A stretch of DNA of 35,951 bases from a bacterium (GTDB lineage Bacteria; Patescibacteriota; Dojkabacteria; JAKAPS01). Shown piece by piece: positions 124-35,951 of this stretch. Made by a program: the position numbers and the translations under genes. Location: assembly GCA_021806925.1 (NCBI GenBank), contig JAKAPS010000011.1, forward strand, positions 1 through 35,951, written 5' to 3'. Within the stretch, counting starts at the first letter, position 1, and each line of letters starts with the position of its first letter. The notes under the pieces were generated by a model. The model was not told where the DNA came from, searched no databases, and was given only the letters and a program-made list of their open reading frames with translations.

Positions 124-741
124 CTATAGATCTAAATTTTCATTAACAATTCTATTAGGAATACCCGTATCTTTGCCATTTTTATTATAATAATTTTTCC
201 TATTCATAGTGTACTTCCCCCAATAAATTGTAAATGTCTTTTCATAATATGAAATTACATCTAATTTAGATTTATCATCTATGTATTTTTGATTTAATAA
301 TTTGAGTATATTTTTCTTTAGCAATATTTCATTTAAAAAATTAGCATATTTTTTACCTTCGTATTCATATACTATATTACTAAAATCAAACAGATTTCTT
401 ATATCCTTATTTATTTCATTGATCTTTTCTTGTAGTTTATTTCGCTCAACTGAAATATTATTGCTTTCTGATTTAGCTTTCTGTTTTAATTTCGAATACT
501 CCAAATATGCATTATATTTCTTATTAAGTAGTTCAACTGGTATCAAGAACCTAGACAAAGAATACTCTATAAAACTCTCATGTTCACTGTCAATCATTTT
601 CTTCATCTCTTGGTAATATTCAATATCCTTATTATTTTCAGGTGTATATTTTGTATCATTACATTGGACTAATTCAAATTTAAGAGTCTTCTTTGAAGTA
701 GCTATATTAGTGAAATAATTTGTAAAAGATTCATTATTCAT
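124..741 (-). pseudogene. cas12a: N-terminal fragment of a Cas12a (Cpf1)-type CRISPR effector
   Basis: About 205 residues that read as the first sixth of a type V-A effector (full length is usually 1,200-1,300 aa). Near the N-terminus are FTNYF and SKKTLKFELV, matching the Cas12a opening (F-x-N-x-Y, SKTLRFELIP). Next comes YYQEMKKMIDSEHESFIE, matching the family's DYKK-x-K-x-IID-x-YH-x-FIE. The end reads FTIYWGKYTMNRKNYY and then GIPNRIVNENL, matching the TTYF-x-GF-x-ENRKN-x-Y and YRIV-x-(D/E)NL stretches of REC1. The frame stops two codons later at TAG. REC2, PI, RuvC and Nuc regions are absent, so it cannot cleave DNA as it stands. I chose the ATG at 741 over 768 because it gives the usual short leader before the FTN motif and has a TATAAT just upstream. 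No cas1, cas2, cas4 or repeat array is visible in this window; anything further left is unseen. Family recognised from memory of FnCas12a and LbCas12a. Confidence 0.8.
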
Positions 742-788: not shown

Positions 789-2135
789 ATGCCTATAGAT
801 ACTGATTTTAAATTATATATCAACTCACTTCCTGATTCTCCAGGTGTATATATTTATAGGAACAAGAACTCCAAGGTTATATATGTAGGTAAGGCTAAGA
901 ATATAAAGAAGAGAGTAAAACAATACTTTCAATCTGGATTACTAACAAAGAAGACTGCAATTCTTGTAAGCAAAATAAACTCGATTGAGTATATAAAAGT
1001 AGTATCTGAGAAGGAAGCATTAATACTTGAAAATCAATTGATAAAAGAATATATGCCTAAGTATAACATCCTATTAAAGGATGATAAGGATTACTCATAC
1101 ATAATAATTACACTGTCAGAAGACTATCCTAGAATATTTCCAATTCATATAAGAAGTCTTGAAGAGAGGAATAAATTATCTAAAAATAATGTCTTATTAG
1201 GCCCATATCCATCAATAACTAAATTTAAAAACATACTAAATACATTAAGAAGAATGTATCCATTTAGAACATGTAATATAGATATAAACAAGATAAGCAA
1301 GGATAAAAGAAAATGTATATACTATGACTTAGGATTATGTAATGCACCATGTGATAAATTAGTATCAAAAAACGAATACAGAAAGAATATATTAAACATT
1401 GAAGATGTGTTAACTGGAAAGGGATATAAATTAATAAATAGTTACAAGAGGCTAATGAATGATTCATCAGACAGGCTTGATTTTGAAGAAGCACTCAAAT
1501 ACAGAAATATAATCAAGGATTTAATATATGTAATGAGTAAAGTATATATTAATGAAAAATATAACAAAAATTCGATTGATAAAACCTTAATTCCAGTTTT
1601 GAATAATATATTTAATAAAGTTAAAGCAGAAAATATATCTGGCAAATGGAGGATTGAATGCTATGACATTTCAAATTTTCAAGAATCATACACAGTAGGT
1701 TCGATGGTAGTTTTTGAGAATGGAATGCCAAAAAAAAGCGACTATAGGAAATTTAAAATGTCTATATTAAATAAACCAAATGATTTTGCACGCATACATG
1801 AATTAATATCAAGAAGGTTAAGTCATTTGCAAAATAAGAATGAAAAAGATATGTCTTTTAAATCAAGGCCTGATCTAATAATTATAGATGGAGGAATGGA
1901 ACAGTTAAAAATGGCAAATTCATCTTTAACAGCTATGAATATATCTATACCTATTGTAAGCTTGGCTAAAAAAGAAGAATTAATATATTTTCCACATTCA
2001 AAGGTTCCTCTAAGACTAGACTATTATTCAGATGAAATGTATTTAATCCAGAGAATAAGGGACGAAGCACATAGATTCGCAATTACGTATCATAGACTAC
2101 TAAGGTCAAAAGGTATGAAAATTGATAGATTTTAA
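789..2135 (+). CDS. uvrC: Excinuclease ABC subunit C, short form
   Basis: UvrC makes both incisions around a lesion in UvrABC nucleotide excision repair. The N-terminal GIY-YIG nuclease (about residues 14-95) shows SPGVYIY, IYVGKAKN and the following KKRVKQYF arginine region. The C-terminal RNase H-like nuclease shows ECYDISNFQ, DLIIIDGG and RDEAHRFAITYHR, so the carboxylate and histidine ligands for the 5' incision are present. A Cys cluster (TCNIDINK, KCIYYDLGLCNAPC) lies between them. At 448 aa it is well short of the usual ~600: it ends right after the RNase H-like domain and lacks the tandem helix-hairpin-helix DNA-binding tail, as in many CPR UvrC proteins. It is divergent from the Cas12a fragment, 47 nt away. 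Confidence 0.95.
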   Translation: MPIDTDFKLYINSLPDSPGVYIYRNKNSKVIYVGKAKNIKKRVKQYFQSGLLTKKTAILVSKINSIEYIKVVSEKEALILENQLIKEYMPKYNILLKDDKDYSYIIITLSEDYPRIFPIHIRSLEERNKLSKNNVLLGPYPSITKFKNILNTLRRMYPFRTCNIDINKISKDKRKCIYYDLGLCNAPCDKLVSKNEYRKNILNIEDVLTGKGYKLINSYKRLMNDSSDRLDFEEALKYRNIIKDLIYVMSKVYINEKYNKNSIDKTLIPVLNNIFNKVKAENISGKWRIECYDISNFQESYTVGSMVVFENGMPKKSDYRKFKMSILNKPNDFARIHELISRRLSHLQNKNEKDMSFKSRPDLIIIDGGMEQLKMANSSLTAMNISIPIVSLAKKEELIYFPHSKVPLRLDYYSDEMYLIQRIRDEAHRFAITYHRLLRSKGMKIDRF

Positions 2136-2183
2136 TTTAATATATCTTTTAGTTTAAATTAATTATATAATTTACAGAGTATC

Positions 2184-2819
2184 ATGGATGGTTCAGGACT
2201 TATAAGCAGTGAGTTCTTACAAGTAAGACGGGTCATTGGTGTTGATTTAGATGATGTCTTAATTGAATTCAGTTTGGCACTATCTTCATATATATATATG
2301 AAATATGGTATAAAATACACACTCTATGATATTCCAGCAGATTATGATCTAACCTCAATCTGGAAGTGTTCACATGATGATGTATTGAAGAATATATTTG
2401 AATTCTATTTATCAGAGGACCACATGAATATACTACCCACAAAAGGTGCAATTGAGGCATTGCAATTTCTAATACAGGATTTCGATATTGTCGTTATTAC
2501 ATCGAGACCTCAATCTGTTGAAGATATTACTATAAAATTATTAAGGAAACATTTTCCTGAAATATTCAAGAAGATATATTTTGTAAACACTTACATAGGA
2601 CCAGATAAGAAATCAAAAGCACAAGTTTGTATAGAGAATAATGTTGAACTCTTTATAGATGATTTGTTATCTAATACAATTTCTACTTCTGAAGCAGGAA
2701 TCCCTACAATAATATTTGATAGACCATGGAATCGAATAAATATCAGAAATAACGGGAGAACTGTTAGATGTAAAAATTGGAAAAGTATAGTTAAATTAGC
2801 AGAAGGTATAAGGAAATAG
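2184..2819 (+). CDS. HAD-superfamily 5'-nucleotidase-like protein (NT5C type)
   Basis: A 211-residue HAD phosphatase resembling 5'(3')-deoxyribonucleotidases. Motif I is GVDLDDVL (nucleophile region D21/D23), motif II is VVITSRP, and motif IV is ELFIDDLLSNT near residue 155. A cap-like helical insert follows motif I. Family members dephosphorylate nucleoside monophosphates; the substrate here cannot be read from sequence. A TATAAT at 2166-2171 is 12 nt before the ATG and no Shine-Dalgarno is visible, so it may have its own near-leaderless transcript in addition to read-through from uvrC. It converges on mpl with only about 20 nt between stops. Confidence 0.75.
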   Translation: MDGSGLISSEFLQVRRVIGVDLDDVLIEFSLALSSYIYMKYGIKYTLYDIPADYDLTSIWKCSHDDVLKNIFEFYLSEDHMNILPTKGAIEALQFLIQDFDIVVITSRPQSVEDITIKLLRKHFPEIFKKIYFVNTYIGPDKKSKAQVCIENNVELFIDDLLSNTISTSEAGIPTIIFDRPWNRINIRNNGRTVRCKNWKSIVKLAEGIRK

Positions 2820-2839
2820 TATTCCTCTATGCTTTAGTC

Positions 2840-4288
2840 TTATATATTCATTAAATAATCCCTTAAACCTCCTATATTGCCTGAAGACAACAGTAATACT
2901 ACACTATCAGTTAAATCATAATTTTTGAAAAATTCAAAGAGGGATATATTATCATTAAAATACCTTGCATTCAATTTTTTTGCAATCTTAGAAGTAATTC
3001 CATCTGATTCACTCGTATGATATACAGGAGCAATTATTGCTTCATCTAATCCATTAAAGAAACCTTCAGGAAAAGATATATCACCTGTTATTCTAAAGGA
3101 ATATGAATGTGGTTCGAAAACTGCAATAATTTTCTTCCCATTGTACTTATCCTTGACTGCTTGTATAGATGAATAAGCCTTTACTGGTGAATGTCCAAAG
3201 TCATCTATTAATATGAACTTATCATTTCTAATTATTTCCAGTCTCCTCTTCATACCTGAAAATTTTAATATATTATCATTCTCATTTAGCTTTTCATAGC
3301 TTATACCTTCTAACACATTGTGAAGCAACTCAATTCCTAGTGATAAATTCCTTATGTTATGTTTCCCTATAAGTTTTGTTTTAAATTCACTTCCACGTAT
3401 ATAGAACACTGTATAATCATCAAAGGATGAACCAAATTCAAGTATATCACTAAGATATATCCTTGTAATATCAATATTCTTCAAGTGTTTTACTCCGTTA
3501 TATATCTTTTGTATATTCTCCCCTTCCATATTAAGGAACACTTTATAGGTCGTTTTTTTCAACTCAGCTTCCTTATCCATTGAAAATATCAAATCTAAAT
3601 AGTTGGATACATACTCTTCCTCAGTTTTAAATATATCAATATGATCATAATTCGCACTAGTTAGTAATAGGACTGTTGGATGATATGAAAAAAATTTTGA
3701 TCTTACATTGCTATCAAGCTTAGATTCAACGTATTCATCTCCTTCAAATACGCCCCATTTACTGTCAGTGAAATTAACTCCGCTATTCAAATCAATTGGC
3801 ATACCTCCAATAGCATATGTAGGATTTACACCTAATTTATCTAACATATATGCAATAAAGGAGCTAATTGTAGATTTAGCATACTCTCCAGCTACAACAA
3901 TATTATTTGTCCTCAAGAAGAAATCTTCAAGTACACCTGCAAACCCATAATATATTTTTGACTTATCCTTAAAATTATTTATTGCATCAATGTACTCAGG
4001 ATTATTTTTCCCTATTGCAGTACCTATTAGAATATATTTTGCACCCTTAGGTATATTTCCACTTTTATACCCAATATTCACATTTATATTATTCCTCTTT
4101 AATTGATCACTTGCTGGAGGATAAAACCCTTGATCCGAACCAGACACAACAAACCCTAATTGCTTTAATGCAACAGCGAGTTGTGCTATTAGAGAACCAC
4201 ATATTCCAACAATATAGAAGACATCTCCTCTATTTATATTAGATATTATATTAGATTTTTTTTCAATACTACTTTTCATAAAATTCAT
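2840..4288 (-). CDS. mpl: UDP-N-acetylmuramate:tripeptide ligase (Mpl) homologue with altered P-loop
   Basis: Mpl joins recycled L-Ala-D-Glu-mDAP tripeptide to UDP-MurNAc in the cytoplasm. The Rossmann-like N-terminus has GICGSLIAQLA and SGSDQGFYPPASDQL; the YPP-x-S stretch is characteristic of Mpl rather than MurC. The central domain has the Mpl-like FEGDEY and RSKFFSYHPTVLLLTSANYDHIDIF. The C-terminal domain has DDFGHSPVK and FEPHSYSFR. The ATP loop is GEYAKST (residues 134-140) where the family has GTHGKT(T/S): the lysine and Ser/Thr remain but the preceding Gly is Ala. Length (482 aa) is normal. The start overlaps the DUF1611 gene by 20 nt, so the two are co-expressed; it is the last gene of the dcw-type operon. 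MurC activity is the main alternative. Confidence 0.8.
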   Translation of the reverse strand: MNFMKSSIEKKSNIISNINRGDVFYIVGICGSLIAQLAVALKQLGFVVSGSDQGFYPPASDQLKRNNINVNIGYKSGNIPKGAKYILIGTAIGKNNPEYIDAINNFKDKSKIYYGFAGVLEDFFLRTNNIVVAGEYAKSTISSFIAYMLDKLGVNPTYAIGGMPIDLNSGVNFTDSKWGVFEGDEYVESKLDSNVRSKFFSYHPTVLLLTSANYDHIDIFKTEEEYVSNYLDLIFSMDKEAELKKTTYKVFLNMEGENIQKIYNGVKHLKNIDITRIYLSDILEFGSSFDDYTVFYIRGSEFKTKLIGKHNIRNLSLGIELLHNVLEGISYEKLNENDNILKFSGMKRRLEIIRNDKFILIDDFGHSPVKAYSSIQAVKDKYNGKKIIAVFEPHSYSFRITGDISFPEGFFNGLDEAIIAPVYHTSESDGITSKIAKKLNARYFNDNISLFEFFKNYDLTDSVVLLLSSGNIGGLRDYLMNI

Positions 4289-5336
4289 TTATATGTTTCA
4301 TAGCAGATTCTCCTAATTCACCAGTTTGGAATCTTATCATATCTTCAACAGGAACTTTAGTTATTTCCTTTAATCTTAGTATATATTCTTTTGCTGTCTT
4401 ATCATCTAACCCTTGAGAATTAACTGATATTCCTATCCATTTTATCTTTCTTAATGCTAGTTTCTCATATATTTCCATCGTTTCCTTTGCTGATGGTAAC
4501 GATATATCTTTTGAACCTATAGAATGCTTTCGGATAGGCTTGTCAATTAATATAAGGTGAGTTGGTAATCCACCATGTAGAAGTGCAAGGGTTACACTTG
4601 AAAATCCTGGATGACATATACCCCCCTGACCTTCAAGTATTACAAATTTATTACTCTCATCAGATTCAATAACGAGTTTCTCAACTGCACCAGGCATAAA
4701 ATCTCCGATAACTCTATCAATAGATATTCCTTTTCCCTTTATCATTATTGCATTTTGACCAGTTGCAATAAGTTCTCCTTTAATTCCTTTTTCATTTAAA
4801 TATCTCTCAATTTCAAATCCTGTAGTCATTTTTCCAATTGCTGCATCACTTGCACAAGTTAAAAGTATTGGTTTACCAAAATTAAGACATCTTGCACTTG
4901 CTACATCAAAATCACCTATTGGGTTTCTTACATCCCATATCTCACAATTATTTTTTTTAGCAAGTGCACTTATTTCAATATCTTTATTTAATTCATAATG
5001 CATTCCAGAAACTATATCCATCCCTCTCTCTAATGCCGTAATTACATCCTTTCTTATATTCTCAGATATCCTTCCACCAGCAGGTGATACACCAATAACA
5101 AATATATCAATATAGTCATTCTCAATTTCTTCAATTGACTTAACACATTTAATATCTTTAAATAACTTCTCATTACTGCTGAATGTAGTATCGACTATAG
5201 CTTTGATTTTGAAATTATTAGAATACCTTATTAAACCATCTGCACATTTTGCTCTAACTGGAAATTTCTTTCTATATTCAATCGAGAATGCTTCATCAGC
5301 ATATATTGCAATTGATTTATTATTAAAATTAATCAT
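4269..5336 (-). CDS. DUF1611 / DgcN-like P-loop protein
   Basis: A 355-residue protein of the DUF1611 family. The N-terminal half is a Rossmann-like domain (IFVIGVSPAGGRI around residues 78-90). The C-terminal half is a P-loop NTPase-like domain starting LLTCASDAAIGKMTT (about residues 158-172; the family loop is typically GTDCAVGKMTT), followed by FVILEGQGGICHPGFSSVTLALLHG. The characterised family member DgcN acetylates D-glutamate. Here the gene sits between murE (7 nt gap) and mpl (20 nt overlap), so a role in supplying or modifying D-glutamate or wall peptides is a reasonable inference. The conserved DxA-IGK loop and the GQG motif suggest a working enzyme. Substrate and reaction in this organism are unknown. 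Confidence 0.8.
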   Translation of the reverse strand: MINFNNKSIAIYADEAFSIEYRKKFPVRAKCADGLIRYSNNFKIKAIVDTTFSSNEKLFKDIKCVKSIEEIENDYIDIFVIGVSPAGGRISENIRKDVITALERGMDIVSGMHYELNKDIEISALAKKNNCEIWDVRNPIGDFDVASARCLNFGKPILLTCASDAAIGKMTTGFEIERYLNEKGIKGELIATGQNAIMIKGKGISIDRVIGDFMPGAVEKLVIESDESNKFVILEGQGGICHPGFSSVTLALLHGGLPTHLILIDKPIRKHSIGSKDISLPSAKETMEIYEKLALRKIKWIGISVNSQGLDDKTAKEYILRLKEITKVPVEDMIRFQTGELGESAMKHINEFYEK

Positions 5337-5343
5337 ATATGTA

Positions 5344-6669
5344 TTAATTATCCTTCAATAAAAATTCTTTTACAATACCTACTTCACTCCATGGATACTC
5401 AACTTGCCCTATACATAAGCTCCTTTCATGTCCCTTACCAAGGAAGAAAACATAGTCACCATTTTGCACAAGTTTTGTTAGAACAAACTCTATCATATCT
5501 CTTCTATCATCTATTCTGAACAGATTTGTTCCCTCAATGAATTTCTTATTACATTTATCAATATCCTTAGTTATATCTAAGTAAATATCATCAAGCTTTT
5601 CCATTCTAGGATCTTCCTCTGTTATACAAAGTATATCAGCAAAATCACCAGCTATTTTCCCCATAACTGGCCTCTTTTGTTTATCTCTATGTCCTGCACA
5701 ACCAAATACAACTATTTTTCTTGCTACAACACCTCTAAATGCATATGAAATATTTTTGTATGCATTTGGTGTATGTGCAAAATCAACAATAACAGTAAAT
5801 GGTTTTGTTTGCACAATATCCAGTCTACCTTCGGGAGATTTAAAATCGCTAATGCCTTTTATAAGGGCCTTCATGTTTAACCTTTTAAAGTAAAGTGCAC
5901 TAAATACTCCTCCAATATTTTCAACGTTATATTCACCAATCAAATGTGTTGTTATATCAAAATTTATATTTCTAAGTTTTATATTTATTTTCTGCCCATT
6001 AATAAGTGATTCATTTTCTTTTACATCATCAATTATTCTCAAAGTTACATCTGCTTTGAGATTCTCCATGGTGTTTTTATTAATAGAATTGTCCTGAACA
6101 GAAAATGTATGAATTTCAATATCTCTCCTAATATTCTTAAGATGTTCCAAAATGTATCTGCTATTATTATCATTCAGATTTACAATTGCTAAACCTTTTT
6201 GTTTCAACATATTAAATATTTTTAGCTTTGCTGATCTGTACAGTTCAAACGTCTTATGATAATCAAGATGTTCAGGAGTTATGTTTGTTATATATGCAAT
6301 ATCTAATTTTATTCCGTACGATCTGTATTGTTCAAGTCCATGTGAGGTTAATTCAAGAATAACATATTTTATTCCAGCCCTTTTTAGAATTCTTAAATTC
6401 CTATATATCTCTTTTGATGAAGGTGTAGATGTGTGTAAACCAGTCTCAATAAATTTATCACCCATATACTTCATACCAAGTGTAGATATAACTCCTACCT
6501 TACCATGACTATCATTATTCACATTCATACAGTCGTACAGTAAATTTACTGATGTTGTTTTACCATCAGTACCTGTTACTCCAATGATTGAAATAAAATC
6601 CTGATCATGTATGCCATAAATGAATTTATATGTTAACGCTCTTACTTTTCTTAATAAATTAATTATCAT
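5344..6669 (-). CDS. murE: UDP-MurNAc-tripeptide ligase (MurE), lacking the N-terminal substrate domain
   Basis: MurE adds the third amino acid to UDP-MurNAc-L-Ala-D-Glu. The protein begins almost directly with the ATP-binding domain: IIGVTGTDGKTTSVNLLY (residues 28-45) is an intact P-loop, followed by TSTPSSKEIYRNL, LELTSHGLEQ and NITPEHLDYH. The C-terminal domain has GEYNVENIGGVFSAL, SPEGRLDIV, DFAHTPNA, FGCAGHRDKQKRP and FLGKGHE. The amino-acid-selecting DNPR motif of mDAP enzymes appears as EDPR: the arginine is kept and Asn is replaced by Asp, so mDAP or Lys use cannot be decided. At 441 aa it lacks the roughly 80-residue N-terminal UDP-binding domain, a known trimming in CPR MurE. Start overlaps the murF-like gene by 11 nt. 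Confidence 0.9.
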   Translation of the reverse strand: MIINLLRKVRALTYKFIYGIHDQDFISIIGVTGTDGKTTSVNLLYDCMNVNNDSHGKVGVISTLGMKYMGDKFIETGLHTSTPSSKEIYRNLRILKRAGIKYVILELTSHGLEQYRSYGIKLDIAYITNITPEHLDYHKTFELYRSAKLKIFNMLKQKGLAIVNLNDNNSRYILEHLKNIRRDIEIHTFSVQDNSINKNTMENLKADVTLRIIDDVKENESLINGQKINIKLRNINFDITTHLIGEYNVENIGGVFSALYFKRLNMKALIKGISDFKSPEGRLDIVQTKPFTVIVDFAHTPNAYKNISYAFRGVVARKIVVFGCAGHRDKQKRPVMGKIAGDFADILCITEEDPRMEKLDDIYLDITKDIDKCNKKFIEGTNLFRIDDRRDMIEFVLTKLVQNGDYVFFLGKGHERSLCIGQVEYPWSEVGIVKEFLLKDN

Positions 6670-19335: not shown

Positions 19336-19944
19336 CTATTTTAAGCTTATATCAGTCAAAAATGTTTTCACTTCATTCTCGGATACATAATGTTCATCAA
19401 TAAAATGTACACTCTCCGAGAAGTCTACATCTGCAAAATATGAAAGTTGCACTCTGAAAAATTTCTCATTAAATTGTGACTCGAATATAGATTTTGTTAT
19501 TTCAACAATATCCGTAATGCTAAATATATGTAATATAAAATACAAGTCAACATAGTCTTTCCATTTTGACCTTTTACTCAATGCAAATGCTTTCATAGCT
19601 GCTAATGTTTTTAAATTTGGAAGTTTAATGAAATTCTCAAAATCATCAGTAAATGATATTTTGTATGGGAAATATAGGAAAGTTAATTTCACATTATTTA
19701 CAAGAACAGTAAGCTCATCTTCGCTTTTGAAAAATAGGTGCTCTATTTTAGAGTATCTACTTAATTTATTGCTTATGTGTTGAGTATTAATTTTATCAAT
19801 TGAAAACAAATCAAAATCGACTGATTTTCTATGTCCTAAATGTAATGCAATCGCTGTGCCTCCAACTAGACCGAATACATCTGAGAACTCCTTTATGATT
19901 GGTAATATATGTGTCTGATTTAGATCTAGAATTTCATCGTGCAT
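19336..19944 (-). CDS. AbiEii/AbiGii-type nucleotidyltransferase toxin
   Basis: 202 residues with the DUF1814 nucleotidyltransferase signature: LVGGTAIALHLGHRKSVDFDLF (residues 27-47) contains the GG(T) loop and the D43-x-D45 metal-binding pair. LAAMKAFALSKRSKWKDYVDLYF around residues 115-140 supplies the conserved Lys and Asp of the later motifs. Characterised relatives (AbiEii, MenT) transfer nucleotides to tRNA or other targets, stop growth, and can abort phage infection. It overlaps the small upstream gene by 11 nt, the usual arrangement for this toxin and its antitoxin. All key residues look intact, so it should be active. Confidence 0.85.
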   Translation of the reverse strand: MHDEILDLNQTHILPIIKEFSDVFGLVGGTAIALHLGHRKSVDFDLFSIDKINTQHISNKLSRYSKIEHLFFKSEDELTVLVNNVKLTFLYFPYKISFTDDFENFIKLPNLKTLAAMKAFALSKRSKWKDYVDLYFILHIFSITDIVEITKSIFESQFNEKFFRVQLSYFADVDFSESVHFIDEHYVSENEVKTFLTDISLK

Positions 19945-20191
19945 ATTTCTTAAAATATAGAGTAAAATAGTGTACTATCTCAGGGCGATAGTTAGACCTT
20001 TCCTTCTTAATTGAGTTATCAAATATTTTTGATGTTTGTTTTATTCCTTTAATTTCTATATATTTCTTTACATCATCAAAATCACCGTAGTTTAATACAT
20101 GTTCCAATACTGATTCATCTGACATATTCTCAAGCGAGTCTATATACCAAGCTAAATATGGCTTATTTATTATTATATCCTGTACTCTCAC
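19934..20191 (-). CDS. Probable antitoxin partner of the AbiEii-type toxin (DUF6922-like)
   Basis: 85 residues starting with GTG. The pattern KPYLAWYIDSLENMSDESVLEHVLNYGDFDDVKKYI, then SNYRPEIVHYFTLYF near the C-terminus, matches the short proteins (DUF6922-like) that precede AbiEii genes in many genomes. It ends 11 nt into the toxin gene, so the antitoxin is made first and coupled to the toxin. A 20-bp perfect palindrome covers its -10 region, as expected for an autoregulated module. No classic DNA-binding motif is obvious, so the role as antitoxin rests on size, order and coupling. Confidence 0.65.
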   Translation of the reverse strand: MRVQDIIINKPYLAWYIDSLENMSDESVLEHVLNYGDFDDVKKYIEIKGIKQTSKIFDNSIKKERSNYRPEIVHYFTLYFKKYAR

Positions 20192-35542: not shown

Positions 35543-35608
35543 CCTGATACACCTACAGATGAAAAGGATATAATAAAGGAGTAGATGAATTGGTTTAATG
35601 GAATAGTA

Positions 35609-35951
35609 ATGAAGCATACCAGAGAATAAACAAATGAATAGAAACAGTAGTAGGAATTTGCAGTGAGGAAATATACATTTCTCATTCTAACTGCTGGAGT
35701 TTTAAGTTAGAACTTTATAAATTACCCTGATAATACAATGAAAATAAAAGGGAAACTACTATATTGCCTTCTTCATCAACATTTGATGGGGTTCCGTCAA
35801 TAATTTTCCAGAGGAACGATATAACTCAAGTTAAACACTAAAGATAGAAAAAGGTTGAAATGAAGGGACGAATAGAAATAGGTTAGCACCCACGGAAGAA
35901 TTAAATACTGATTTTAAGCTATTTTATTTAATATTTCATCAGATTTCTTTT
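35609..35951 (+). pseudogene. Decayed copy of the probable transposase that begins at the left edge
   Basis: Reading from the ATG at 35609 gives MKHTRE, stop, TNE, stop, KQ, stop, stop, EFAVRKY, which aligns without gaps to the left-edge protein MKHAPKLTNEQKQELEFAVKKS; 50 of 66 bases match by hand count. Further on, the same frame gives FLILTAGVLS, then stops, and a shifted frame near the end gives TNRNRLAPTEELNTDF, which resembles the linker after the helix-turn-helix in IS630-type transposases. Many stops and at least one frameshift show it is dead. Within the same gene-poor stretch (35360-35951) I see only the greA promoter, the terminator hairpin and an 8-bp stem at 35685-35712. Confidence 0.55.

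Follow-up and report, generated by a model that had tools for sequence, protein, structure and literature searches.

A divergent Cas12a gene of a Dojkabacteria bacterium, apparently inactivated by an IS630-family insertion

How does a reading frame that begins like Cas12a come to end after 205 codons, and what has become of the rest of the gene? CRISPR systems are rare in Patescibacteria, and this question is raised by the first lines of a window of 35,951 nucleotides, which is the whole stretch of DNA analysed here and the entire contig C5 of its assembly, ending inside an IS630-family element. The host is an uncultured Dojkabacteria-like bacterium whose genome (23 contigs, 928,548 bases, about 93% complete) falls in the class Dojkabacteria of the Patescibacteria; two further genomes, G030 and G069, are placed in the same class. 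The original prediction left two answers side by side, namely the disruption of a type V-A locus by an inserted mobile sequence and a retained REC-only fragment. We are close to certain that the frame represents the 5′ portion of a type V-A cas12a gene on the chromosome that was split by the insertion of an IS630-family element, with the other part of the gene located on contig C23 of the same genome (Table 1).

Table 1. Features of the interrupted cas12a gene, the inserted element and the neighbouring genes on the window (contig C5) and on contig C23
Feature	Contig	Position	Strand or order	Basis
IS630-family element, left end, runs off contig edge	C5	1..126	minus	inverted ends, genome pattern search, C23 transposase
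Transposase, first 22 codons MKHAPKLTNEQKQELEFAVKKS, ATG at 66, cut by contig edge	C5	1..66	minus	read from sequence
Terminal inverted repeat TAGACATAACAAGTCAAACCAGCGTCAAG	C5	98..126	minus	pattern search and end comparison
cas12a 5′ part, 205 codons, WED-I and first part of REC1	C5	124..741	minus	Pfam REC1, TIGR04330, junction analysis
TA target site	C5	127..128	no strand	second TA copy across the element, on C23
uvrC, borders the CRISPR island on the C5 side, divergent from cas12a	C5	789..2135	plus	Pfam UvrC_RNaseH_dom 2e-48
cas12a remainder, 983 codons	C23	41863-38912	minus	RuvC_1, TIGR04330
cas4 (cas4_PREFRAN)	C23	38915-38346	after cas12a	profile 1.7e-62
cas1 (cas1_PREFRAN)	C23	38362-37412	after cas4	profile 1.8e-90
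cas2	C23	37415-37137	after cas1	profile 3e-13
CRISPR array	C23	about 36900-36268	after cas2	36-nt Cas12a-type repeats

The 205-residue frame, counted from the ATG at 741 (the ORF finder instead starts at 768, which gives 214 residues), is the N-terminus of Cas12a and corresponds to the front fifth of cas12a, with a likeness far beyond chance. The Cas12a N-terminal motifs on which the original prediction was built are present in the sequence, and a profile search matched the frame to Pfam REC1 (PF18501) with 49.9 bits and an E-value of 5e-13, where the cut-off is 37.4 bits. The same part of the window matched the NCBIfam model TIGR04330 (cas_Cpf1) at E 1.4e-15 over model positions 3-191, and a PDB search with the frame returned AsCas12a at E 2e-5. 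An AlphaFold model of this part, calculated from 16 aligned sequences, reached a mean pLDDT of 71, and the first 32 Foldseek matches to that model were all Cas12a structures (probability 0.99-1.00, with E-values of only 0.005 or weaker). Profile and structure comparison therefore bore out the claim of a truncated Cas12a.

The rest of the gene is found at the end of another contig. A RuvC_1 profile search of the bacterium's own genome hit a single place, near the C23 end, with an E-value of 1.5e-69, and coverage of the REC1 model is complementary between the two contigs, such that model positions 1-156 lie on C5 and positions 165-250 on C23. The C23 part alone scores 461.7 bits against TIGR04330, so the 300-bit cut-off of the Cas12a model is exceeded. 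Alignment with FnCas12a places IGIDRGERN, VVLEDLN, GDSNGAY, QLRNT and LHVPITLNWK at corresponding positions, with the RuvC catalytic D, E and D, the NUC arginine and the crRNA-processing H/K among their residues. Beside this part of cas12a lie cas4, cas1, cas2 and a CRISPR array, the gene content that defines a type V-A locus. The array comprises ten identical 36-nt copies of GTCTAATAATAACAATATATTTCTACTAATGTAGAT and closes with a degenerate copy. It holds nine distinct spacers, of which one is present twice; an Rfam search of the array region gave no match. The repeated spacer occupies two successive units (L004:11331-11457 on C23), and an IS66-family transposase gene adjoins the distal array end (L004:9923-11224 on C23). 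The missing gene part, cas1, cas2, cas4 and repeat array that were looked for were thus all located on C23, and the end of the IS630 element beside them upholds the reading of a type V-A locus disrupted by an inserted element.

The junction itself explains where the frame ends. Its TAG stop, at 126-124, is formed by the first three bases of the inserted element. Behind this stop the original prediction had placed about 55 nt followed by the start of a repeated, probably mobile gene. These ~57 nt are no neutral spacer but the terminal inverted repeat and leader of the element. The mobile gene is real: an IS630-family element is represented here by its left end and its first 22 codons, and its right end occurs in a second copy where contig C13 ends. 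While those 22 codons alone are too short for a family call, the last 239 bases of C23 carry the element's right end and code for the final 73 residues of a transposase of the IS630 family. This 73-residue fragment matches DDE_3 at 1.6e-8, above the cut-off, which identifies an IS630 transposase; its match to NF033545 (1.5e-10) is below that model's whole-protein cut-off. Over their outermost 29 bases, the element ends on C5 and C23 are inverted repeats that agree at 24 of 29 positions, and both inverted termini and a TA target duplication, as in the IS630 family, are present at the cas12a site. When the element and one TA are removed in silico, a single open frame of 1188 codons results, whereas keeping both TA copies closes the frame after 207 codons. 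At the junction the joined protein has the sequence NRIVNENLDLFIKNIERF, which aligns without gaps with RIIDENLPKFCDN and like segments of 21 relatives.

Within the genome the end pattern of the element occurs only at the edges of C5, C13 and C23. The C13 edge holds another right end, 98% identical, that is followed by AA and not TA, such that either the exact end of the element is uncertain by two bases or the C13 copy has decayed. From this C13 copy it is clear that the genome contains the element more than once, which suffices to interrupt an assembly; contigs C5 and C23 accordingly end within the element, with one part of cas12a on each. The element shares its DDE_3/IS630 transposase C-terminus, short inverted termini and TA duplication with the IS630 family (IS630/Tc1/mariner-type); it differs in that only its two ends are seen, the middle being absent from the assembly, and in that a search for further copies in 380 genomes of the phylum returned only relatives, the closest of them 57% identical in the C-terminal part. 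At the opposite end of the window (35583-35672) lies a degenerate relic with 78% identity over 90 bases to the element's left end and transposase start.

The insertion is not spanned by any single contig, and for this reason we infer the join of C5 and C23. Beyond the array, C23 carries an aldehyde dehydrogenase gene, with tpiA and radC before it. In 7/7 relatives, all from the same family or order, uvrC and the aldehyde dehydrogenase gene lie side by side on one strand, about 20 to 1,100 bases apart, which argues that the end of C23 and the start of C5 belong next to each other. The order in a same-family genome is radC, tpiA, aldehyde dehydrogenase, two small frames, uvrC and a mur ligase, and neither REC1 nor cas1 was found in that genome. 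By this comparison of gene order, the CRISPR locus, together with the IS66 transposase gene beside its array, is an island between aldehyde dehydrogenase and uvrC. One alternative hypothesis is that the parts were one gene once and that recombination between element copies then separated them, such that C5 and C23 would lie apart in the actual chromosome. There are at least two copies of the element (C23 and C13) with assembly breaks at both; however, a simple join of C23 to C5 keeps the ancestral order of the outer genes, and cas12a is broken in either case. We consider this rearrangement very unlikely. Two separate observations concern genes of the window. The uvrC product measures 448 residues against 501 in the same-family genome and may be without the usual C-terminal part, and uvrC frames of order-level relatives also measure about 445-474 residues. 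At 19336-20191 there are two overlapping small genes, the second of AbiEii-type nucleotidyltransferase appearance by eye, which are perhaps a toxin-antitoxin or defence pair.

Could the 205-residue protein instead be a retained REC-only fragment, domesticated for a function of its own? Its frame is open over all 205 codons, but the end of that frame is set by the element, and the other part of the gene survives without damage, its frame open and its catalytic motifs retained. Among the relatives with a Cas12a match, genes are full-length or otherwise broken, and none has a 205-residue form. This half of the original prediction finds no support, and we assign it a negligible probability.

Returning to insertion into cas12a, we propose that an element of the IS630 family entered cas12a behind codon 205, at a TA dinucleotide that was duplicated in the process, and that the element's own terminal TAG ended the reading frame at residue 205. 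Cas12a is one continuous effector of ~1200-1300 residues, and here the gene is split after codon 205. The N-terminal product would stop mid-REC1, and the first start codon available among the C-terminal 983 codons lies at about residue 261 of the joined protein; for these reasons crRNA-guided interference has most likely been lost, while the adaptation genes and the array would stay intact. The type V-A system was thus apparently inactivated by the insertion sequence. The event may be recent, judging by the clean frames, the undamaged motifs and the absence of differences among the ten repeats. An alternative hypothesis is that of a natural split Cas12a, in which both parts are expressed and the N-terminal 205 residues assemble with the C-terminal product on crRNA. 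The two open frames and the retained catalytic motifs speak for it, but an intact frame is equally expected from a recent insertion, and with no start in the first 55 codons of the C-terminal part, any product would lack REC1 residues ~206-260. Moreover, promoter scans around the break gave no excess over shuffles. We hold such a split enzyme to be highly improbable. Self-targeting spacers were also considered as the cause of inactivation and rejected: the best off-array match of the nine distinct spacers to the bacterium's own genome is 17 bases on contig C14 (E 0.057); it has mismatches at the first three bases on the PAM side and is no better than chance. No spacer targets were found among phage records, and a search for four spacers as exact stretches in viral contigs found none. 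Presumably the whole population carries the insertion.

The parent Cas12a is divergent, yet it falls within the Cas12a family. The restored protein of 1188 residues has 27-32% identity to 21 relatives, and its end branch of 2.7 compares with a median of 0.5, where the long branch and odd composition make placement unsure. The predicted divergence from known Cas12a is confirmed by this long branch and by an identity of about 32% at best among the relatives compared. The unbroken gene did not turn up in related genomes: no uninterrupted copy of this cas12a was found, REC1 matches in 97 relatives were distant, and viral contigs yielded no Cas12a relatives. A broader reading, in which the restored protein stands for a deep Cas12a branch that evolves fast and has distinct properties, and in which the split effector works in at least part of the population, has in our estimate only a slight chance of being correct. 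In a same-class relative, locus L027 (G043:C19, about 1000-5775) holds a Cas12a gene broken into several frames with a stop, adjoined by cas4/cas1 remnants. Loss of type V-A systems in the Dojkabacteria class has possibly occurred repeatedly.

Type V-A systems have been published from the Candidate Phyla Radiation, for example from Vampirococcus (PMC8080830). The locus described here shares with that system and with the Dojkabacteria loci L031 and L044 the cas12a-cas4-cas1-cas2-array order, cas4 and cas1 of the PREFRAN type, RuvC and NUC domains and a repeat that ends in a TCTAC-TAAT-GTAGA hairpin, but differs from them in that its cas12a is split by an IS630 element and encodes a divergent protein. 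Natural IS insertions into cas genes have likewise been published (PMC10359306), as have IS256 insertions in cas/csm genes of S. epidermidis (PMC3784566), and FnCpf1 was also struck by insertion sequences in a laboratory trap (PMC10359306). Those natural cases share with the present one a mobile element that interrupts a cas gene, whereas here the element is of IS630 type and the target a natural cas12a of Patescibacteria; the words IS630 and cas12 are absent from the main text of PMC10359306. The mechanism is ordinary, since breakage of cas genes by insertion sequences is already known, and what is new is the IS630-type instance together with the divergent parent Cas12a. The finding adds a natural case in which an IS630-type insertion would disable a Cas12a effector in Patescibacteria, and the locus context, the repeat and all 1188 codons of a divergent Cas12a are useful for collections of Cas12a diversity.
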